A stretch of 35,838 nt of DNA from Verrucomicrobiota bacterium. GTDB lineage: Bacteria; Verrucomicrobiota; Verrucomicrobiia; CAIQCK01. Location: contig JACRKA010000055.1 of the NCBI GenBank assembly GCA_016219905.1, positions 1 to 35,838 of the forward strand. Direction: 5' to 3'. The notes beneath the pieces were generated by a model, which was not told the origin of the DNA, did not search any database, and saw only the letters and a list, made by a program, of their open reading frames with translations. Below are positions 2,564-33,315 of this stretch, piece by piece. A program made the position numbers and the translations under genes. The stretch's first letter is position 1, and each line of letters starts with the position of its first letter.

Positions 2564-3379
2564 ATGAGCGCCGTTTCGCCACGCAAGAAGATCACGACGG
2601 CGACGATCCGCGGCATGAAGGGCTGCGAGAAGATCGTCTCGCTGACGGCCTACGACTACGTCACCGCGAAGCTGGTGGACGAGGCCGGCGTGCATTTGAT
2701 CCTGGTGGGCGACTCGCTCGGCATGGTGGTGCTCGGCTACGAAAGCACGCTGCCGGTGACGATGGCGGACATGCTGCATCACACCGCCGCCGTCGCGCGC
2801 TCCAAGCCGAGGGCTTTGCTCATCGCCGACATGCCGTTCATGAGCTACCACCGCGGCGTGGACCAGGCGGTGAAGAACGCCGGCCGGTTCGTGCAGGAAG
2901 CCGGCGCGGAGGGCGTGAAGCTCGAAGGCGGCAGCCCGCGCATGGTGGAGAAGATCGCCGCCATCGTCGAGGCCGGCATTCCCGTGCTCGGCCACATCGG
3001 CCTGACGCCACAGAGCGTGCTGGAACTGGGCGGCTACAAGATTCAGGGCAAGACCGAGGCGACCGCCAAGCGGCTGCTGGACGAAGCGAAGCGGGTCGAG
3101 GCAGCCGGCGCGTTCGCGATGGTGCTGGAGTGCGTGCCGGCGGAGTTGGCGAAGACAATCAGCGAGTCGCTGCGCATCCCGACCATCGGCATCGGCGCCG
3201 GCCCGCACTGCGACGGGCAGATTCAGGTGATCAACGACCTCCTCGGCCTCGCGACGTGGCCGACGTTCAAACACGTGAAACGCTTTGCCTCCGTCGGCGA
3301 CGCGATGCGCACAGCCGTCGCCTCCTACCGCGACGAGGTGCAGAGCGGGAAGTTCCCCACCAAAGAGCAATCGTTCTGA
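2564..3379 (+). CDS. panB: 3-methyl-2-oxobutanoate hydroxymethyltransferase
   Basis: PanB makes ketopantoate from alpha-ketoisovalerate and methylene-tetrahydrofolate, the first step of pantothenate (CoA) synthesis. The 271-residue product spans the full family: VSLTAYDY near the N-terminus, the metal/substrate block LVGDSLGMVVLGYESTLPVT, VKLEGG, GHIGLTPQ, ECVPAEL with the expected catalytic Glu, and IGIGAGPHCDGQIQVINDLLG near the C-terminus. The ATG at 2564 is chosen because MSAVSPRKKITTATIRGMKG matches normal PanB N-termini; the ribosome site is weak, since the leader derives from the repeat. It follows folK in the same direction. Its pathway partner panC is about 3.8 kb downstream, and no panD is seen. 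Confidence 0.96.
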   Translation: MSAVSPRKKITTATIRGMKGCEKIVSLTAYDYVTAKLVDEAGVHLILVGDSLGMVVLGYESTLPVTMADMLHHTAAVARSKPRALLIADMPFMSYHRGVDQAVKNAGRFVQEAGAEGVKLEGGSPRMVEKIAAIVEAGIPVLGHIGLTPQSVLELGGYKIQGKTEATAKRLLDEAKRVEAAGAFAMVLECVPAELAKTISESLRIPTIGIGAGPHCDGQIQVINDLLGLATWPTFKHVKRFASVGDAMRTAVASYRDEVQSGKFPTKEQSF

Positions 3380-3393
3380 GTTGTGGCTGCGAT

Positions 3394-3422
3394 TTGCCAC
3401 CAGATGCCGGCAGATGTAAACT
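3394..3422 (+). promoter_or_regulatory. Candidate sigma70-type promoter for the ankyrin gene
   Basis: TTGCCA (3394-3399), a 17-base spacer and TAAACT (3417-3422) fit a -35/-10 pair. The predicted start of transcription near 3429 leaves a leader of about 37 bases containing the ribosome site AAAGGAG. It lies just after the panB stop. Prediction by eye only. Confidence 0.5.
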
Positions 3423-3465
3423 GATGCCGTCAGGGAGCCGAGTGTGAACCAAAGGAGCGTGGAAG

Positions 3466-4725
3466 GTGACCATGAGAGCGCCGACGGCACTAAGCGTTAT
3501 CGCGGTTGTTTTGGTGGGGGGGAGTTTGTGCCAGGCCGATCCCGCGAAAGAGATATGTGAGGCGGCTTTCTTTGGCAGGGATCCCAAGGTTGCGTCGCTC
3601 CTGAAGGCGGATCCCGGGCTGGCCAACGCCAAGGGCATGGCGGGGCAGACGCCACTGGCGCTGGCTGCGGAGAACGGCCACCAGCGGATCGTTGAGATGC
3701 TGCTGGCCCACAAGGCAGACCTGAATGCCCAGGACAGCGCGGGCTTCACGGCGCTTCACTTCGCGGTTTGGAAGGGGCGCAAGGTTATTGCCGAGTTGTT
3801 GATCGCCAAAGGCGCCGACATCAACGTCCGCGGGCCGGGCGGCAAGACACCCCTGCTGCTGGCCGTGCAGGAGAACGTCAGGGAAATGGTCGCGCTGTTA
3901 CTGGCCCACAAGGCAGACGTCACTGTTCCCGACAATCAGGGCGCCACGTCGCTGCTGTGGGCGGTCGAGCATGGGAAAAAGGACATGGCCGAACTGCTGG
4001 TTGCCCGCGGAGCCGATATCAACGGCAAGGACCGTCGAGGCAACACAGCGATCGGCGTGGCGTTGGCTGGCGGCAAGAAAGAAATGGCGGATTGGCTGCT
4101 CGCGAAAGGCGCGAAGCCCGACATCTTCCAAGCGGCTCAACTGGGCGGATCGGAGCTGGTCTCGGGCATCCTCGCCGGGGATGCTGCGCTCGCGAATGCG
4201 CGGACGCAAAAGGGATCGGCGCCATTGCACATCGCCGCCTTCGCAGGCCGGAAAGAGGTGGTTGAACTCCTGCTGGCGCGCGGGGCAGAGGTGGACGCAA
4301 AGACACCGCTGGGGCAGACACCGCTGCATTTCGCGGCACAGGCGGGTCGCAAGGAGGTTGCAGGTCTGTTGCTGGACCACAAGGCGACGCTGAACGCCCG
4401 GACAGAGTTTGGCCCCATGCCGATGGCTTATGCCGGCAAGAGAGGGTGGACGCCGCTTCACACGGCCGCATCCAACGGTCAGAAAGAAGTGGCCGAGTTG
4501 CTGCTCTCACGCGGGGCCGAGGTGAACGCACGCACCGAGTGGAGCGCGACGCCGTTGCACCTCGCCGCGGTGGAAGGCCATCGTGCAGTGGTGGAGTTGC
4601 TGCTGGCCAACAAAGCGGACGTGAACGCAAAGTCGCGGCTCGGCCTGACTCCGCTGGTGGTCGCCAGGCAAAAGGGGAAGAAAGAGGTCTGCGACTTGCT
4701 GCGGCAGCACGGCGGGATAGAGTAA
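3466..4725 (+). CDS. Secreted ankyrin-repeat protein
   Basis: An exported protein made almost entirely of 33-residue ankyrin repeats, a protein-binding scaffold without a catalytic motif. The N-terminus has a signal peptide (hydrophobic ALSVIAVVLVGGS, likely cleavage after CQA). The rest holds about nine canonical repeats with G-TPLH-A-G--EVAELLL--GA-VNA, for example GWTPLHTAASNGQKEVAELL, plus degenerate units at the start and in the middle (around DIFQAAQLGGSELVSGILAG). One repeat carries an insertion ending FGPMPMAYAGKR. The start may be GTG 3466 (after AAAGGAG at 3451-3457) or ATG 3472; both give the same signal peptide. It appears to have its own promoter. It converges on dapL, 49 bases away. 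Target and role are unknown. Confidence 0.88.
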   Translation: MTMRAPTALSVIAVVLVGGSLCQADPAKEICEAAFFGRDPKVASLLKADPGLANAKGMAGQTPLALAAENGHQRIVEMLLAHKADLNAQDSAGFTALHFAVWKGRKVIAELLIAKGADINVRGPGGKTPLLLAVQENVREMVALLLAHKADVTVPDNQGATSLLWAVEHGKKDMAELLVARGADINGKDRRGNTAIGVALAGGKKEMADWLLAKGAKPDIFQAAQLGGSELVSGILAGDAALANARTQKGSAPLHIAAFAGRKEVVELLLARGAEVDAKTPLGQTPLHFAAQAGRKEVAGLLLDHKATLNARTEFGPMPMAYAGKRGWTPLHTAASNGQKEVAELLLSRGAEVNARTEWSATPLHLAAVEGHRAVVELLLANKADVNAKSRLGLTPLVVARQKGKKEVCDLLRQHGGIE

Positions 4726-13301: not shown

Positions 13302-13329
13302 ACCGCGGATAACGCAGATGGCGCGGATG
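13302..13329. repeat. CCGCGGAT-type repeat, copy left of the GxxExxY gene
   Basis: ACCGCGGATAACGCAGATGG (13302-13321) followed by CGCGGATG matches the arms of the repeats at 2478-2549 and 13753-13829. A possible degraded partner (TAATCCGTG, about 13349-13357) follows at some 20 bases. It lies between the ThuA stop and the 3' end of the GxxExxY gene. Confidence 0.75.
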
Positions 13330-13364
13330 GTTATTGGGGCTGGGCCAGTAATCCGTGTTTTTCT

Positions 13365-13742
13365 TCAATCGTCAACAGCTTCTCGGACGACGCGTTTCCA
13401 CTGGAGGCGGGAGAACTTGAAATTCAGCAGCAGAGCGACCTGGAGACCGGTGATCGCGAGGTAGCCGACCATTTGCGCGATGTGACTCTCATTGAATGCA
13501 GTGACTACCTTGGGATCCACAATCACCTTGCCATCCACGATCAAGTCGGGAATCAACATGCCGATGTGTTCATTCCGATAGCTGACAGGAAACTGGCGCT
13601 GTTGCTCGATGGTGTGGCCGCCGGCTTTCAATTCCAAGACGAGCGCGTTCTCGTAAAGCTTCTCGTCAAGGCCAGGCCTCAACTCGTTGAGCACGCGCAT
13701 GGCGGCGCCGATGATTGCCTTCGTGAGTTCCTCGTGTTGCAT
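13365..13742 (-). CDS. GxxExxY protein (PDDEXK-like)
   Basis: A 125-residue member of the GxxExxY family, which is predicted to have a PD-(D/E)XK nuclease-like fold; its biological role is not established. The name motif is visible as GLDEKLYENALVLEL, followed by a basic QQRQFPVSYRN strand and the core PDLIVDGKVIVDPKVV, with the C-terminal MVGYLAITGLQVALLLNF. In most members, as I recall, the core ends in ELK; here it is DPK, so the presumed catalytic acid is changed and followed by proline. The frame extends to 13787, but those codons come from the flanking repeat; I start at MQHEELTKAIIG (ATG 13742). Codon use is less GC-rich than its neighbours. Flanking CCGCGGAT repeats on both sides suggest a mobile or repeat-associated unit. 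Confidence 0.88.
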   Translation of the reverse strand: MQHEELTKAIIGAAMRVLNELRPGLDEKLYENALVLELKAGGHTIEQQRQFPVSYRNEHIGMLIPDLIVDGKVIVDPKVVTAFNESHIAQMVGYLAITGLQVALLLNFKFSRLQWKRVVREAVDD

Positions 13743-13752
13743 AGTTGGGTGT

Positions 13753-13829
13753 AACCGCGGATTACGCTGATACCGCGGATGAGTCATGAATTCGCCGAAC
13801 CATCCGCGTCATCCGCGATATCCGCGGTT
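13753..13829. repeat. Inverted repeat of CCGCGGAT type, right of the GxxExxY gene
   Basis: The left arm AACCGCGGATTACGCTGAT (from 13753) and the right arm ATCCGCGATATCCGCGGTT (ending 13829) pair over about 27 bases with some mismatches; the loop is about 18 bases. The right arm ends exactly at the stop codon of the esterase gene (13829-13831), and the left arm lies 10 bases upstream of the GxxExxY start. It is a third copy of the family at 2478-2549. Confidence 0.85.
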
Positions 13830-14807: not shown

Positions 14808-15998
14808 ATGAACACGAGCCAAACCTCCCCGATCAACCGTCGTCATTTCCTCAAGGCCGCCACTGCCGTTGCCGGTGCGACGTTTGTCAGCGTCAAGCCG
14901 CGTGCGCAGGCCGCGCCGACCATCAAGCTGCTGGAGACGAAAGTCATCAGCCACCAGCCGCAGTATTACCACGGCTGGCCGACCGTGGCGCGCCGCCGCA
15001 ACGGCGACCTGTTGCTGAGCTATTCCGGCGGGCGCGAGGCGCACGTCTGCCCGTTCGGCCGGGTCGAGTTGATGGTGTCGCACGACAACGGCGCGACGTG
15101 GGGCTGGCCACAGGTGCTGCTCGACAGCGCGATTGACGACCGCGACTCCGGCGTGCTGGAGACGGCGAAGGGTTCGATCCTCGTCACGACGTTCACGTCG
15201 CTGGCTTACGAGAGCGGCCTGCTGGCAGCAGAGAAGAAGAAGCCCGGCGACAAAGGCGCGTGGCCAGCCGAGAAGCTCAAAGCATGGCAGGCCGCGCACA
15301 ACCGGCTCAGCGCGGAGCAACGGCAGGGCGAACTCGGCCAATGGATGACCCGCTCGACCGATGGAGGTGTGACCTGGTCCGCGCGCTATCCGACCATCGT
15401 GAACAGCCCGCACGGGCCAATCCAGCTCGGCGACGGCCGGCTGCTCTATGCGGGCAAGGAGCTTTGGACCGGCAAGAAGCGCGTCGGCGTTTGCGAGTCG
15501 CGCGACGATGGCAAGTCGTGGCACTGGCTTGCGGAAATTCCCGCGCGCGCTGGCGACGAGGCGAAGAATTACCACGAGTTGCACGCCGTCGAGGTGTCGC
15601 GCGGCCGGGTCATCGTCCAGATCCGCAACCACAACAAAGCCAATGCCGGCGAGACGCTCCAAACCGAATCTTCCGACGGCGGCAAGACGTGGTCGGTGCC
15701 ACACTCCATCGGCGTTTGGGGACTGCCGTCGCATCTGCTGCGGCTGCGCAGCGGCAGGCTGCTGATGACCTACGGCCATCGCCGCGCGCCGTTCGGCAAT
15801 CAGGCCCGCATCAGCGACGACGGCGGCAAATCGTGGTCGGAGCCGGTCATCGTTTCCGGCGATGGCGCGGGCGGCGACCTCGGCTATCCGAGCACGGTCG
15901 AGCTGGCCGACGGCGCGCTGTTGACGGTGTGGTATGAATCAATGAAGGGGTCGCCGCGCGCCGTGCTGCGGCAGGCGCGGTGGACGCTGGAAGCTTGA
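14808..15998 (+). CDS. Tat-exported sialidase-fold protein (exo-alpha-sialidase-like)
   Basis: A 396-residue six-bladed propeller of the sialidase/neuraminidase superfamily. The N-terminus carries a twin-arginine signal (NRRHFLKAATAVAGATF). Five Asp-box motifs (S-x-D-x-G-x-T/S-W) are visible: SHDNGATWGWP, STDGGVTWSAR, SRDDGKSWHW, SSDGGKTWSVP and SDDGGKSWSEP. Together with the strand before each, these mark the fold clearly. Arginines likely to bind a carboxylate cannot be assigned with certainty, so true sialidase activity is not shown; many environmental members act on other uronic or keto sugars, or are uncharacterised. It is divergent from the esterase and followed by a 229-base stretch of repeats. 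Confidence 0.92.
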   Translation: MNTSQTSPINRRHFLKAATAVAGATFVSVKPRAQAAPTIKLLETKVISHQPQYYHGWPTVARRRNGDLLLSYSGGREAHVCPFGRVELMVSHDNGATWGWPQVLLDSAIDDRDSGVLETAKGSILVTTFTSLAYESGLLAAEKKKPGDKGAWPAEKLKAWQAAHNRLSAEQRQGELGQWMTRSTDGGVTWSARYPTIVNSPHGPIQLGDGRLLYAGKELWTGKKRVGVCESRDDGKSWHWLAEIPARAGDEAKNYHELHAVEVSRGRVIVQIRNHNKANAGETLQTESSDGGKTWSVPHSIGVWGLPSHLLRLRSGRLLMTYGHRRAPFGNQARISDDGGKSWSEPVIVSGDGAGGDLGYPSTVELADGALLTVWYESMKGSPRAVLRQARWTLEA

Positions 15999-20666: not shown

Positions 20667-23018
20667 ATGAAAACCGCAGCCATTATCTTCGCCGTCGCCG
20701 CCACCGCCCACGCCGCGCCGCTGCTCTACGACATGGGCACCGAGAAGTCGGAGGTCTGGCCCGGCTTCACGCAGGTCACGCCCAAGAGCGCGGGCTGGCA
20801 GCGCAAGGACGGCCTCACCGCCTCGGCGCGCGCCTACCGCGAGATGGTCGAGGACAAGCGGCGCGGCCGTGAGGAGCAACCGCCAATCTGGACCAACCCG
20901 ATCACCGAGGACGCCGTCATCGGCGAAAGCGAGAACGTGTTCCTCATGGCCGCGCCGCCGGGCGACTACAATCTCTATGTCGTCTGCGGCACGAGCGACT
21001 CGAAGTATCGCGCGCAGTTCTTCGACTTTATCGTGCAGGCCGGCAGGCAGACGCAGCACGTCCAGATCGAAGGCTGCTACCAGTTCCGCACGCTCCGGTT
21101 CCGCGTGTCTGTGCCCCGTAGGCCAGACACTCCTGTCTGGCCAGCAAAGACAGACCCGAAGACCGGGAAGGCCAGACAAGAGTGTCTGGCCTACGAGCCG
21201 CTCGCCATCAAGTTCGCGCCGCGCAGCAAGTGGGTCGTCAATGCCATCATGGCGTGGACCGATGCCGACGCGGCGCGCGTCGAGAAGGAAATCATCACGC
21301 CGTTCGAGGAATGGACCGTCCGCATGCCGCCAGAGCAATGGGCGAAGTGGAAGCAAGACCCGGAGCCGCCGACCGGCCCGATGCCGAAGCTGGACGCTGC
21401 GGACGAGAAGCGCGGCTTCGCCATCTGGTCGCGGCACTACCTAGAGTGCGTCTATCCGCACACCAACCCGCGCGCCGAGGACCTCAACCCCGAACTGCGC
21501 GCGTTCGCGACGCCGGGCGAGTTCGAGCCGGTGAACTTCATCGTCCGCCCGCTGCGCGACCTCGCCAACGCGAAGGTCAGCGTCAGCGCCATCGGACCGA
21601 TAGCGGCGAAGAACGTCGAGGTGCGCCGCGTCCGCTACATGCTGGCGCGACCGAACTACACGGTGCTCCATCGTTGCCGCATCGTGCCCGACGTGCTGGA
21701 GCGGTTCGAGGGCGGCGATCTCAAGGCCGGCGAGAACGCGCGCTTCTGGCTGACAATCCGCGTTCCCGACAACGCCCCGGCGGGCGAGTATCGCGGCAAT
21801 GTCACGTTCACCTGCGCGGGCGGCAAGGCCGTCGTGCCGGTGAAGCTGCGCGTGCTTCCGTTCAAGCTGCGCGACGACCCGGCGAAGATTTTCGGCATCT
21901 ACTACCATCATCCGCTCGACCGCGCTGCCGAGGCGAAGGACGATGTCTCGCGCGAGTATTGGCGGCGCAAAGCCGACCTGGAGCACGCCGACATGGTCAC
22001 CCACGGCACGCGCAACGTTGTGCTCTCGCTCTGGTGCCCGGCCGCTGACAAAGACGGCAAGTTCGACATCAAGTGGGACACGCTCGCCGAGAAAATCGCG
22101 TTGTGGAAAAAGCACGGCTTTGTCGGGCCGATGGTCATGGGCATCAACAGCGGCGGCGTCTATCATAAATATATGAAGGAGTCGCCCGGCTCGCACCTGC
22201 GCGGCGTGAAGGATCCGCCGGAGGAGTTCAGCCGCGAGATGACCGCGATGGTGCGCGCCATCGAGGCGGGGCGGAAGGAGCGCGGTTGGCCGGAGTTCCT
22301 CTACTACCCGGTGGACGAACCAAGCACGAACCCCGACTCGGTGAATTTCATGGTGAAAGTGCTGAAGGCGTGCAAGGCCGCGGGCGTGCGGACCTACGTA
22401 ACGGCCGACCCGACGCACGAGCAGTTCGAGCCGATGCGACCGTTCATTGACGTGTGGAGCACGCAGCCGTTCGCGCCGGACCGCGAGACGGTGCTCGCCG
22501 ACATGAAGGCGCGGAATGTTGAGTATTGGTGCTACCCCAATCACGTCAACGGCGAGAACGACCACACGCCGGTGACCGGCGCGCGGATGACCTACGGCTT
22601 CGGCTTCTGGCGCAGCGGATTCCTGACGCTCAATCCGTGGATTTACCAGGCCAGCGGGGGCGACCCGTGGAACTACCTCGACAGTTCCTCGATGGATTTC
22701 TTCAACCGCAGCGAGCGGGACGGCGCGCCGATTCCCGTGGCGATGTGGGAGGCGTATCGCGAAGGCTACGACGATTACCTCTACATCTACACGTTGGAGC
22801 GACTCATCGCCGAGGCGAAGAAGAGCGCAAAGCCTGTCGCGCAAAATGCCGCGACAGAGGCGGATCAGGAATTGAAATCGGTCTGGGACGCCATCCGCGT
22901 GCAGTTGAAATACAAGCACGACGACCTCTGGTCGCCGGCGGAGTTCGACGTTTACCGCTGGATGGTGGCGCGGCAGATTCTCGCGCTGCAATCGGCGATG
23001 GGCGGGCGCGGCCGTTAG
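20667..23018 (+). CDS. Exported GH123/DUF4091-like glycoside hydrolase
   Basis: A 783-residue secreted protein. A short signal peptide (MKTAAIIFAVAATAHA) is followed by an N-terminal beta domain, the FATPGEFEPVNFIVRPLRDL domain typical of GH123 and DUF4091 proteins, a Ca-binding-like beta sandwich (AGEYRGNVTFTCAGG) and a TIM barrel. FLYYPVDEPS contains adjacent Asp550-Glu551, matching the Asp-Glu pair of GH123 beta-N-acetylgalactosaminidases. The C-terminus has AYREGYDDYLYIYTLE, the DUF4091 signature. It may act on N-acetylated or deoxy sugars; the substrate is inferred only. Residues 151-176 are encoded by an inserted inverted repeat. The stop codon overlaps that of the convergent Usp gene by 4 bases (TTAG). 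Confidence 0.85.
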   Translation: MKTAAIIFAVAATAHAAPLLYDMGTEKSEVWPGFTQVTPKSAGWQRKDGLTASARAYREMVEDKRRGREEQPPIWTNPITEDAVIGESENVFLMAAPPGDYNLYVVCGTSDSKYRAQFFDFIVQAGRQTQHVQIEGCYQFRTLRFRVSVPRRPDTPVWPAKTDPKTGKARQECLAYEPLAIKFAPRSKWVVNAIMAWTDADAARVEKEIITPFEEWTVRMPPEQWAKWKQDPEPPTGPMPKLDAADEKRGFAIWSRHYLECVYPHTNPRAEDLNPELRAFATPGEFEPVNFIVRPLRDLANAKVSVSAIGPIAAKNVEVRRVRYMLARPNYTVLHRCRIVPDVLERFEGGDLKAGENARFWLTIRVPDNAPAGEYRGNVTFTCAGGKAVVPVKLRVLPFKLRDDPAKIFGIYYHHPLDRAAEAKDDVSREYWRRKADLEHADMVTHGTRNVVLSLWCPAADKDGKFDIKWDTLAEKIALWKKHGFVGPMVMGINSGGVYHKYMKESPGSHLRGVKDPPEEFSREMTAMVRAIEAGRKERGWPEFLYYPVDEPSTNPDSVNFMVKVLKACKAAGVRTYVTADPTHEQFEPMRPFIDVWSTQPFAPDRETVLADMKARNVEYWCYPNHVNGENDHTPVTGARMTYGFGFWRSGFLTLNPWIYQASGGDPWNYLDSSSMDFFNRSERDGAPIPVAMWEAYREGYDDYLYIYTLERLIAEAKKSAKPVAQNAATEADQELKSVWDAIRVQLKYKHDDLWSPAEFDVYRWMVARQILALQSAMGGRGR
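21118..21194. repeat. In-frame inverted repeat GTAGGCCAGACACTC inside the GH123-like gene
   Basis: The 25-base arms 21118-21142 and 21170-21194 are reverse complements with a single mismatch. The left arm reads GTAGGCCAGACACTCCTGTC then TGGCC; the spacer is 27 bases. The element is translated as part of the protein (RRPDTPVWPA ... GKARQECLAY), interrupting a normal-looking sequence between TLRFRVSV and YEPLAIKFAP. Confidence 0.92.
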
Positions 23019-24918: not shown

Positions 24919-26856
24919 ATGAAACCCACTGTGATCACCTGCATCGCGTTGTTGACCGTAACATGCGCCGTCGCTGGACTGGCCCAGGCGGCGGAGAACC
25001 CGCGGACCTTCCACGTCAGTGCCGCATCCGGCGATGACAGCAACTCTGGTCTCTCGCCGCGAGCGCCGTGGCGCAGCCTCGACAAGGTCAACGCCGCGGA
25101 ACTCCGGCCCGGCGACAAGGTGCTCTTCAAACGCGGTGACATCTGGCGCGGGCAACTGGTCCCGCAGAGTGGCAAGCTGGGCGTGCCGATCACCTACGCC
25201 GCCTACGGCAAAGGCGACCGGCCGCTGCTGCTCGGCTCGGTCCGTTGCGACAAGCCGGGCGACTGGCGGCACGAAGGCGGCAACATCTGGGCCACCGCAA
25301 AGCCCGTCTTTACGGAACTGGAGACACGCAACGATCTCGCGGCGTTGCGGTGGTCGGTCCATGCCGAGTCCGGCGCGAAGGTCAGGGCGACGACATCCGA
25401 AGTAGGCGCCGACGTAAGGAGGCGGTCCGATCAATCCGCAAATCCAACGCGCCTCCTCACGTCGGCGCCTACACCCATGACGCAAATCGAGTGCGCCGCC
25501 AGCGGCACGGCAGGAAATCACATCCAGGTTTACGCCGGCGGTTTCTCGATCAAGGAAGGCGACTACTATGCCTTCAGCTTCCGCGCCCGATGCACCAAGC
25601 CGTTTGTCCTGCGCAACGTCAGCCTGATGAACCAGTCGCCGCCGTGGAAGAGCTACGGCCGCGGCAGCGCGGTGGAGTTCAACGTCGGCGCGGACTGGAC
25701 CAGATGCGCAGTCCGTTTCAAGGCCACGAAAACGGCCGACGACGGACGGATCACTGTCTATCTCGGCGGCGCGCTGCCCGCCGGCGCGACGTTCTGCTTC
25801 CAGCCCGTCTCGTGGAAACGGCTCCGGTGCAATGAAGCCGACCTGCTGTCGGTGGATGTCGGCAACATCATCTTCGACCACGGCAAGGCCGTCGGCGTGA
25901 AGAAATGGAAAGCCGCCGACCTCAAGCAGCCGGGCGACTACTGGTATGACGGCGCCAACTGGCAGGTGAAGCTCTATTCGGAGAAGAACCCCGCCGAGTC
26001 ACACAAGAGCATCGAGCTGGCGCTGCGCCGGCATATCATCAGCCAAGGTGGCGTGGGCCACGTCGTCTATGAGAACCTCGCCGTGAGCTGTGGCGCGGCG
26101 CACGGTTTCGGCGGCGGCTCGACGCGCGGCATTGTCATCCGCAACTGCGACATCTCATGGATCGGCGGCGGCCACCAGTTCACCCATCCCGGAGGAAGGC
26201 CCGTCCGCTTCGGCAACGGCATCGAGTTCTGGTCGAGCGCGCGCGACTGCCTTGTCGAGGGCTGCCGCCTCTGGGAAATCTACGACGCCGCGCTCACCAA
26301 CCAGGGCAGCGGCACCAACCAGCAGGTCAACATCACCTACCGCGACAACGTCATCTGGAACTCCGAGTATTCGTTCGAGTATTGGAACCGCGGCTCCGCG
26401 TCCGTCACGCGCAACATCCGCTTCGACCACAACACCTGCGTCAACGCCGGCTTCGGCTGGGGCCACGCCCAGCGTCCCGACCGCAACGGCCGCCATCTCA
26501 TGTTCTACCACAACCCGGCGCAGACCTCGGAGTTCCACGTCCGCGACAACATCTTCTGCAACGCCACCGAGAGCGCCCTGCGGATGTGGAACGATTGGAC
26601 CGCCGGCCTGACGATGGACCGCAACTGCTGGTTCCAGCGCGGTGACGTGCTGATGCTGCTCCTGAAGTCGCCGTTCGCGCCCGGCCAGTTCGCGGAGTTC
26701 CAGACGCAAAGCAAACTCGACGCCCACTCCCTCGTCGCCGACCCGAAGTTCATCAACGCCGACAAGCTCGACTTCCGTCTTGCTCCCGACAGCCCCGCGC
26801 GCAAGCTCGCCGCCGGCGGCGGGCCGGTGGGATCACGGAAACGGCTGCGGGAGTAG
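24919..26856 (+). CDS. Exported right-handed parallel beta-helix protein with embedded CBM-like module
   Basis: A 645-residue protein with a signal peptide ending LAQA. The mature start HVSAASGDDSNSGLSPRAPW is the usual opening of DUF1565/pectate-lyase-like beta-helices. At about 140-310 a CBM4/9-like module is embedded (SIKEGDYYAFSFRARCTKPF, then WTRCAVRFKATKTADDGRI). From about 365 the helix continues with many N-containing rungs (GIVIRNCDISWIGGG, VEGCRLWEIYDAALTNQGSG, VTRNIRFDHNTCVNA). Substrate and whether it is lyase, hydrolase or epimerase are not clear. Residues 162-185 are encoded by an inserted inverted repeat between the first strands of the CBM-like part. It has its own candidate promoter. 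The SGNH gene follows after 68 bases. Confidence 0.87.
   Translation: MKPTVITCIALLTVTCAVAGLAQAAENPRTFHVSAASGDDSNSGLSPRAPWRSLDKVNAAELRPGDKVLFKRGDIWRGQLVPQSGKLGVPITYAAYGKGDRPLLLGSVRCDKPGDWRHEGGNIWATAKPVFTELETRNDLAALRWSVHAESGAKVRATTSEVGADVRRRSDQSANPTRLLTSAPTPMTQIECAASGTAGNHIQVYAGGFSIKEGDYYAFSFRARCTKPFVLRNVSLMNQSPPWKSYGRGSAVEFNVGADWTRCAVRFKATKTADDGRITVYLGGALPAGATFCFQPVSWKRLRCNEADLLSVDVGNIIFDHGKAVGVKKWKAADLKQPGDYWYDGANWQVKLYSEKNPAESHKSIELALRRHIISQGGVGHVVYENLAVSCGAAHGFGGGSTRGIVIRNCDISWIGGGHQFTHPGGRPVRFGNGIEFWSSARDCLVEGCRLWEIYDAALTNQGSGTNQQVNITYRDNVIWNSEYSFEYWNRGSASVTRNIRFDHNTCVNAGFGWGHAQRPDRNGRHLMFYHNPAQTSEFHVRDNIFCNATESALRMWNDWTAGLTMDRNCWFQRGDVLMLLLKSPFAPGQFAEFQTQSKLDAHSLVADPKFINADKLDFRLAPDSPARKLAAGGGPVGSRKRLRE
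25402..25472. repeat. In-frame inverted repeat GTAGGCGCCGACGT inside the beta-helix gene
   Basis: The 23-base arms 25402-25424 and 25450-25472 are reverse complements with one mismatch (GTAGGCGCCGACGTAAGGAG then GCG on the left); the spacer is 25 bases. It is read through as VGADVRRRSDQ ... LLTSAPT. The reading frame used avoids the TAG and TAA that occur in another frame of the left arm. Confidence 0.92.
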
Positions 26857-30487: not shown

Positions 30488-30702
30488 GGGCGCATCTCAG
30501 TTTCTGAGAGTCCATCATTCCGTCGGCGCAGTTGGTTTTTCTGCCGCCGTGAGCAAGGCGGCGGAGGTCCGCCGCAGTCCAAGACGCTGTCGCGTATTTT
30601 GGCCGCTCTCGGTAACGCGCCAGCGTCTTGGACTGCGCCAGCCCTCTGGCGCTTTTCGTCCGGGGCAAACAAGCGGTGAGGCCAAGAAACTGAGATGCGC
30701 CC
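30488..30702. repeat. Nested inverted-repeat element before leuS
   Basis: Outer arms of 18 bases match perfectly: GGGCGCATCTCAGTTTCT (30488-30505) and its complement (30685-30702). Inner arms of 22 bases have one mismatch: GCAGTCCAAGACGCTGTCGC then GT (30574-30595), and 30615-30636. Small hairpins flank the inner pair: GCGGAGGTCCGC on the left (about 30561-30572) and GCGCCAGCCCTCTGGCGC on the right (30635-30652). The element occupies most of the 340-base gap 30434-30773, which contains no gene that I can support. Confidence 0.88.
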
Positions 30703-30729
30703 AGAAGCAGGGCAGAGGCGGTTATAGTC

Positions 30730-30757
30730 TTGCAGCGCCGGAAGCGCTCCCCTATCT
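30730..30757 (+). promoter_or_regulatory. Candidate promoter for leuS
   Basis: TTGCAG (30730-30735), a 16-base spacer and CTATCT (30752-30757). It lies 17 bases upstream of the ATG at 30774, just outside the nested repeat. The leader would be under 10 bases, and no ribosome site is seen. Prediction by eye. Confidence 0.35.
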
Positions 30758-30773
30758 TCCGCGCCGATTTTCC

Positions 30774-33287
30774 ATGGCAGCGACCCGCAAGCAATACCCG
30801 TTCGACCTCATCGAGCCGAAGTGGCGGCAATTCTGGCTCGATAACAAGACGTTCCGCGCCAGCGACGGCGGCTCGAAGCCGAAGTTTTACATCCTCGACA
30901 TGTTCCCGTATCCGAGCGGCGCGGGGCTTCACGTCGGCCACCCGGAGGGTTACACCGCCACGGACATCCTCGCCCGCTACAAACGGATGCGCGGTTTCAA
31001 CGTGCTGCACCCGATGGGCTGGGACGCGTTCGGCCTGCCCGCCGAGCAATACGCCATCGAGACCGGCACGCATCCCGCCGCGACGACGCGCAAGAACATC
31101 GCCACGTTCCGCCGCCAGATCCAGATGCTCGGCTTCAGCTACGACTGGAACCGCGAGGTGGACACGACTGACCCGGACTACTTCAAGTGGACGCAGTGGA
31201 TTTTCCTCCAGATTTTCAAGAAGGGCCTCGCCTACGAGAGCGAGGTGCCGGTGTGGTGGTGCGAGGGCTGCAAAGCCGTGCTTGCGAACGAAGAGGTCAG
31301 TGGTGGCGTTTGCGACCGCAAGGGCCACACCAACGTCGTGCGCCGGCCGTTGCGGCAGTGGGTGTTGAAGATCACCGCCTACGCCGACCGATTGCTGGAG
31401 GACCTGAAGCTGGTGGACTGGTCCGAGGCCATCAAGGAGATGCAGCGCAATTGGATCGGCCGCAGCGAAGGCGCGGAGGTCAAATTTCAGATCGCAGATT
31501 TGAAATCTGAGATCACCGTGTTCACCACGCGGCCAGACACGCTCTTTGGCGCGACCTACATGGTTCTCGCACCGGAGCATCCGCTTGTGGAAAAGGTGAC
31601 GACGGTTGCGCAGCGCGCGGCGGTGAGCGCTTATCGCGAGGCGGCGACGAAGAAGAGCGAACTGGACCGCACCGATCTCGCGAAGGAGAAGACCGGCGTC
31701 TTCATTGGCGGCTACGCGATCAATCCGGTCAACAACGAGAAGATTCCGATCTGGGTCGCTGACTACGTGATGATGGGCTACGGCACCGGCGCGATTATGG
31801 CCGTGCCGGCCCATGACACCCGCGACCTGGAGTTCGCGCAGAAGTTCAACCTGCCGGTGATCATCGTCGTGCAGGCTCCAGCAGGCCAAGAGAGCATCGG
31901 CTTTGTCGGCGACGGCGTGTCGGTCAATTCCGGCCTCATCACCGGCCTGCCGACGCCGGAAGCGAAGAAGAAGATTACAGCGTGGCTCGAAGAGCGCGGC
32001 CTCGGCAAGAAGGCGATCAACTACAAGCTCCGCGATTGGCTGTTCTCGCGGCAGCGTTACTGGGGCGAGCCGATTCCCGTCGTCCACTGCAACAAGTGCG
32101 GTGTGGTGCCGTTGCCGGAGTCGGCGCTGCCGCTGACGTTGCCGGAGATGCACGATTACACGCCGCCTGCGTCGGCCGAGCCGCCGCTGGCGAAGGCGAC
32201 CGATTGGGTGAAGACGACCTGCCCGAAGTGCGGCGGGCCGGCGACGCGCGAGACGAACACGATGCCGCAGTGGGCCGGCTCGTGCTGGTATTACCTGCGG
32301 TTCATTGACCCGAAGAACCCGCAGGCGTTCGTCGCGAAGGACAAAGAGAAATACTGGATGCCGGTGGACCTCTACGTGGGCGGCGCGGAGCATGCGGTGC
32401 TGCACCTGCTCTACTCGCGGTTCTGGCACAAGGTGCTCTACGACCTCGGCCACGTCTCGACGCCGGAGCCGTTCATGAAGCTCGTGAACCAGGGCATGAT
32501 CCTCGGCGAGGACGGCCAGAAGATGAGCAAGAGCCGCGGCAACGTCATCAATCCCGACGACGTGGTGGCCGACTTCGGCGCGGACTCGTTCCGGCTTTAC
32601 GAGATGTTCATGGGGCCGCTGGAGGCCAGCAAGCCTTGGAGCACGAAAGGCATCGAGGGCGTGAACCGCTTCCTGGGGCGCGTGTGGAGGTTGTTCGTGG
32701 ACGAGAAGGCGCAGCAGGATTTCGAGCTGGCCGTCGCGGCAGGCACGCCGGGCGAGCAGGCGCTCGCGGGCGTGAAACTCTCGCCCGCCATCAAGGACGC
32801 CGTGCCGACGCCGGAGCAGTTGAAGCTCTTGCACGCGACAATCAAGGCCGTTACGGACGACCTCGATGCGATGGGGTTCAACACGGCCATCTCGCGGATG
32901 ATGGAGTTTGTGAACGAGGCCACGCGCTGGGTCGCGGCGGGCCAGCCGCTGCCTCGTAAGGCTGCGGAGCCGTTCGTGCTGCTGCTGGCGCCGTTCGCGC
33001 CGCATGTGTGCGAGCAACTGTGGACGATGCTCGGCTACACGCAGTCGCTGGCTTATGAGCCGTGGCCGGGCTACGATGCGGCGTTGTTGGTGGCGAAGGA
33101 AGTCGAAGTTGTGCTACAGGTCAACGGCAAGGTGCGCGACCGCATCAGGGTCGCCGCGGGCCTGCCGCAGGCCGAGTTGGAGAAGCTCGCCCACGCCAAC
33201 GAGAAGGTCGTGCAGCACACGGCAGGCAAGACGGTCCGTAAAGTGGTTGTAGTGCCGGACAAGTTAGTCAATATTGTCGCGGCCTGA
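30774..33287 (+). CDS. leuS: Leucine--tRNA ligase
   Basis: LeuRS charges tRNA-Leu with leucine in the cytoplasm. The 837-residue product is of bacterial length. Landmarks: HVGH (53-56) in [19 protein letters not shown], zinc-like [17 protein letters not shown], the editing-domain [31 protein letters not shown], the KMSKS loop at 583-587, and the C-terminal VNGKVRDRI. All usual active-site parts are intact. The frame is open from 30549, but the extra codons come from the nested repeat, so ATG 30774 ([19 protein letters not shown]) is the start. Residues about 237-247, just before the editing motif, are encoded by AT-rich repeat-like DNA. A perfect 9-bp hairpin follows the stop. Confidence 0.97.
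31481..31514. repeat. AT-rich quasi-palindromic segment inside leuS
   Basis: CAAATTTCAGATCGCAGATT then TGAAATCTGAGATC contains overlapping inverted and direct repeats of the CAGATTTGAAATCTG kind. It is read in frame as [11 protein letters not shown]. The base composition is strikingly AT-rich compared with the rest of leuS. The length of the region seems normal for LeuRS, so it may be a replacement rather than an extra insertion. Confidence 0.55.
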
Positions 33288-33293
33288 GCCGTA

Positions 33294-33315
33294 GCGGAAA
33301 GCGCGAGCTTTCCGC
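33294..33315. repeat. Short perfect hairpin with GCGA loop after leuS
   Basis: GCGGAAAGC (33294-33302), the loop GCGA, and GCTTTCCGC (33307-33315) form a perfect 9-bp stem with a GNRA-type tetraloop, 6 bases after the leuS stop. No T run follows, so intrinsic termination is doubtful. It may be another dispersed palindrome, an RNA stabiliser, or a weak attenuator before the next gene. Confidence 0.8.

Follow-up and report, generated by a model that had tools for sequence, protein, structure and literature searches.

A GTAG-tagged REP doublet, very probably a REPIN, read in frame in a Verrucomicrobiota gene, and a RAYT lineage linked to its family

REPINs have been described as replicative units (Bertels and Rainey 2011; PMC3116915), and TnpA-REP recognises GTAG plus a hairpin in single strands and cleaves at a nearby CT (PMC8266576). 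GTAG REP dimers located within genes, including those of the verrucomicrobium Opitutus terrae, were reported by Di Nocera et al. in 2013 (PMC3733652). We analysed a stretch of 35,838 nucleotides from a Verrucomicrobiota genome (the window; contig JACRKA010000055.1 of GCA_016219905.1), in which a 71-bp palindrome at 25402-25472 is translated as part of a longer protein. It is highly probable that this palindrome is a REPIN, a non-autonomous miniature mobile element of the RAYT class, encoding a peptide that is most likely functionless.

In-frame palindromes and their empty sites

Re-reading the window sequence bore out the palindrome that a sequence-only reading had described in frame as residues 162-185. 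Positions 25402-25424 read GTAGGCGCCGACGTAAGGAGGCG and the minus strand of 25450-25472 reads GTAGGCGCCGACGTGAGGAGGCG; these 23-bp arms match at 22 of 23 positions and enclose a 25-nt spacer. Codon 162 of ORF 24919-26856 opens exactly at 25402, and codon 185 consists of the final two bases of the element and one flanking base. The element is composed of two 24-nt REPs paired head-to-head. The left REP (25402-25425, plus strand) is GTAG followed by the hairpin GCGCC GA C GTAA G GA GGCGG, with the basal G-G unpaired, and the right REP (25449-25472, minus strand) is GTAG followed by GCGCC GA C GTGA G GA GGCGC. The sequence separating them (25426-25448) is unconserved among copies. ViennaRNA folded single arms of this family, here termed F2, into the outer stem of 4-5 bp, and the whole element into one long hairpin (z -8.9).

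The host gene (24919-26856, plus strand) encodes a carbohydrate-active-type protein of 645 aa with weak matches to CBM_4_9 and DUF5123. The insert had been placed inside an embedded CBM-like module; this location was not borne out, as the CBM_4_9 match (E 3.8e-4, below the Pfam cut-off) covers residues 196-283 and the insert sits just ahead of it. Homologues from six other genomes (G002-G006 and G016), 63-77% identical, align to either side of the insert but do not have it. They are shorter by a net 24 or 25 residues, according to the homologue, which corresponds to 72 or 75 bp against an element of 71 bp. Comparison of these protein sequences demonstrated an insertion at 25402-25472, the exact junctions of which are uncertain. 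A pseudogene, or an error of assembly, with a frame left open by accident is extremely unlikely. In favour of such a reading, the source genome is a fragmented MAG in which F2 copies lie at several contig ends. Against it, the frame is open across all 645 aa, the flanks of the insert are 57-85% identical to the homologues on both sides, and several other F2 copies, within conserved domains or between them, are likewise in frame.

A second palindrome, at 21118-21194, had been assigned to a different family of the same design, and both are indeed in-frame, GTAG-tagged REP doublets. The arm of this family (F1) is GTAG followed by GCCAGACA-CTCC-TGTCTGGC, so that its plan is that of F2 and its hairpin, with a perfect 8-bp stem of GCCAGACA and TGTCTGGC, is different; compensated stem variants such as GTAGGACAGACACTCCTGTCTGTC also occur. 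The element is read within ORF 20667-23018 (plus strand), encoding a protein of 783 aa with a match to the N-terminal domain of glycoside hydrolase 123 slightly under the cut-off. Homologues in five genomes are empty at this site, with a net difference of 25 residues against 77 bp. Uninterrupted homologues, which the sequence-only reading had proposed looking for, were thus found for both host genes. Its proposed shared GTAGGC start was too long, since many F2 copies read GTAGC; GTAG is the only sequence that F1 and F2 arms have in common, and it is the common end in the other copies. The outcomes named beforehand as refuting, a lack of further copies or differing termini, were not observed.

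Further repeats were observed in the window. A third type of REP, GTAGCGGAAAGCGCGAGCTTTCCG, with a perfect 8-bp stem, occurs singly at 33291-33314, just past the stop of ORF 30549-33287, and resembles REPs adjoining a RAYT in G003 (L284). At the start of the same ORF (30555-30655) is an imperfect palindrome with 41-bp arms (83%) and without a GTAG end, the core of which, GTCCAAGACGCTG, has 20 copies in the genome compared with 0 for the reversed control. A palindrome of TGGAGTATTGGAGTGATGGAG-type units at 1868-1959, with 46-bp arms that are 78% complementary, is apparently another repeat type, and a CCGCGGATnnCGCGGAT-type repeat recurs several times, in both orientations, at 2478-2549 and 13302-13829.

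Copies and arm hairpin of the F2 family

We searched the source genome (4.88 Mb in 393 contigs, 89% complete) with one F2 arm, and catalogued the copies by pattern searching and from fetched stretches of sequence. A tolerance of up to 3 mismatches yielded 95 arms, compared with 0 for the reversed pattern, which places the F2 palindrome beyond chance. F2 was present in all seven genomes searched of the source's GTDB family, and also in many Verrucomicrobiota MAGs. The fetched copies comprised 39 inverted pairs with GTAG outermost and 22 further single entries. The arms were constant and the spacers unrelated from copy to copy; the conserved unit is the 24-nt arm rather than the long palindrome. 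The stated total of 71-77 bp was too narrow, as F2 pairs range from 53 to 128 bp with a mode of 71-72.

The arm follows the plan GTAG, five stem bases, GA, one base, GTNA, one base, GA, five stem bases, giving a hairpin with a 5-bp stem, a GA/GA mismatch, one closing pair and a GTNA loop. In searches that held the core constant but let the stems vary, stem pair 2 was found as C-G, A-T and G-C, and stem pair 3 as G-C, A-T and C-G. Of 63 distinct arms, 46 had a complementary pair 2, whereas 1000 shuffles gave 27.8 on average and never more than 39. The loop-closing pair, left free in the search, was C-G in 280 of 319 arm copies, G-C in 30 and other combinations in 9. These compensatory changes within single arms indicate folding of the individual arm; the covariation events are non-independent because the copies are related, yet several distinct double changes exist. 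With GTAG at the foot of a hairpin, a high copy number and a stem kept by complementary changes, F2 arms have these features of REPs, and a pair of them, inverted across a short spacer and forming one long hairpin, has those of a REPIN.

We also considered a classical MITE, in which the 23-bp arms would be terminal inverted repeats, the enzyme a DDE transposase and the unit the whole palindrome. The length of about 71 bp and the inverted ends resemble those of a small MITE, and the whole element forms one strong hairpin (z -8.9). However, compensatory changes support a hairpin within each arm, a feature that terminal repeats would not require; the end is the GTAG that tags RAYT-linked REPs; there is no relation among the spacers; and the F2-linked gene is RAYT-type (see below). 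Target-site duplications were looked for at the F2 and F1 empty sites and none was seen, in homologues that have diverged. Together this makes a MITE very improbable, and favours the REPIN.

Other F2 copies also lie inside genes. A mostly extragenic location is a further trait of GTAG REPs; among the 39 F2 pairs at least five are in verified genes and several more probably so. In a PSCyt2/PSD1 protein on contig 204, the insert lies right after the conserved ATYRQ motif, and two paralogues lack exactly 24 residues relative to an element of 71 bp. Further in-frame copies lie in a PutA protein, with the proline dehydrogenase domain on one side and the aldehyde dehydrogenase domain on the other (a copy left out of the insertion-length measurement because the linker has diverged in the only homologue), within a BNR sialidase-like domain, and in an interval that separates GH38 domains; a GT9 protein, a VWA protein and another BNR protein hold probable copies. 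Not every element within a gene has a length divisible by three, which requires the gain or loss of a few bases at the junctions. Translation of the element uses two frames (VGADVRRR... and RSRRRKEA...), and the third contains the TAG of GTAG.

These copies bear on whether the insert has been retained for a function in the host protein or mRNA, as a domesticated linker or in the control of translation or stability. The open frame and the otherwise well conserved host protein are consistent with this, and REPs may serve as RNA elements in other bacteria (PMC3733652). However, the insert at 25402-25472 is present in the source genome and lacking in the homologues from six others, and the occurrence of F2 in unrelated proteins and in two frames argues against a common peptide function. 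We therefore regard retention for function as most doubtful, and a tolerated REPIN insertion as the better account. The broader proposal that REPINs are a regular source of in-frame peptide inserts in this Verrucomicrobiota lineage is rather unlikely. If it were true, the element itself, with two of three frames open and a net length of about 72 bp, would make insertion into genes tolerable, and would be a transposase-linked counterpart to the Rickettsia palindromic elements.

RAYT genes adjoining F1 and F2

Seven Y1-transposase matches were found in the source genome. One of these, the RAYT on contig 272 (longest ORF 14853-15557), has F1 REPINs at both sides and forms an F1 REPtron: the REPIN at 14811-14904 overlaps the 5' end of the longest ORF, and that at 15554-15631 lies at its stop codon. 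The other Y1-transposase genes of this genome adjoined GTAG hairpins of other types or had none that we could find, and none adjoined F2.

An F2-linked RAYT was reached through contigs with exact F2 arms, which we searched with RAYT proteins; a PF01797 search alone missed it. On a MAG contig labelled Akkermansia muciniphila (L185), F2 REPINs (3094-3184 and 4027-4123) flank a RAYT at 3240-3821. Its lineage has members in G005 (L283) and G003 (L289) that adjoin F2-type REPs and are respectively 84% and 72% identical to a RAYT of G006 (L155), which adjoins a close F2 variant with the same GTRA loop. REPs adjoining a more distant RAYT (G003 contig 7, 46% identity) have another stem, and most of them have the GTRA loop. 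A likely cognate RAYT is thus flanked by the same REPs for F2 in three other Verrucomicrobiota genomes and for F1 in the source genome. A close homologue of the F2-linked RAYT was not found in the source genome (best 35% identity), nor in G004, a genome with 56 F2 arms; with the source genome in 393 contigs and 89% complete, its F2-linked RAYT may be missing from the assembly or lost.

The RAYT proteins conserve the HxH motif and the tyrosine. They matched NCBIfam REP_Tyr_transpos (NF047646) with E 9e-19 and 1e-17, at 64-75 bits against a cut-off of 80, and the E. coli TnpA-REP structure 4er8 with E 7e-7 and 7e-9. The L185 lineage is the likely F2 transposase. The F1- and F2-linked enzymes are only about 29% identical to each other. 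Related insertion machinery had been suggested for the two palindromes, and this was supported: F1 and F2 are each in physical linkage with a RAYT of their own, and both RAYTs fall in one superfamily.

In genomes of the source's GTDB family (L031, L036, L037, L160, L283, L284), we observed many RAYT-like genes with varied adjoining families of GTAG hairpins. Some REPINs were heterodimers of one perfect and one mismatched REP (G005 contig 9).

F2 may move by a TnpA-REP-like route, as its anatomy and gene linkage suggest. The F2-linked RAYT lineage would recognise GTAG and the hairpin in single-stranded DNA, cut near the hairpin foot, and transfer the doublet to a new site by a single-strand route. 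Most insertions into genes would presumably be lost. The survivors would be those with a net length that is a multiple of three and a frame without the TAG of GTAG, tolerated, where domains meet or in loops, as inserts some 24 residues long, and the encoded peptide would most likely have no function of its own. The base preceding GTAG is C or T in 80-86% of F2 arms, which is compatible with TnpA-REP cleavage at CT. This pyrimidine was all that emerged of the insertion preference that we had been led to look for, and the left end of 25402-25472 deviates from it (A). The signs of mobility are confined to the empty sites in related species and paralogues, with no excised or polymorphic copy seen inside a single species, and because the spacers differ between copies, it is by inference that we treat the whole doublet as the moving unit.

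Comparison with known systems

The REPINs and RAYTs of Pseudomonas (PMC3116915) resemble F2 in their inverted REP hairpins, less conserved spacer and many copies, and, as here, a RAYT is flanked by its own REPs and several families occur per genome. However, the Pseudomonas REPINs were described as extragenic, whereas here a number are in frame within genes. The REPs of E. coli TnpA-REP (PMC8266576; 4er8) share with F2 the GTAG foot, two conserved stem mismatches and an HUH Y1 transposase, which in sequence matches the F2-linked RAYT; the sequences of stem and loop differ from F2. Rickettsia palindromic elements are likewise in-frame palindromes in many unrelated protein genes, but the Rickettsia conorii repeats have CGTC instead of GTAG and are without an associated transposase, as given in PMC3733652. 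The dimers of O. terrae and others described in the same paper belong to the same phylum and are GTAG-tagged, head-to-head and intragenic, encoding 20-30 residues, with several families per genome. They are likened here to F1 and F2 by description, not by consensus sequences.

An in-frame REPIN within a gene is a known phenomenon, and F2 is a further case. To this we add a pair of families within one window, their empty sites, a linked RAYT lineage, and a hairpin supported by covariation, with a GA/GA mismatch and GTNA loop that we propose as a candidate recognition element for the linked RAYT. For annotation, this means that Verrucomicrobiota protein stretches resembling VGADVRRR...LLTSAPT are scars of insertion and not domains. 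In-frame palindromic protein inserts, with empty sites in relatives, are here tied to a specific, testable transposase lineage.
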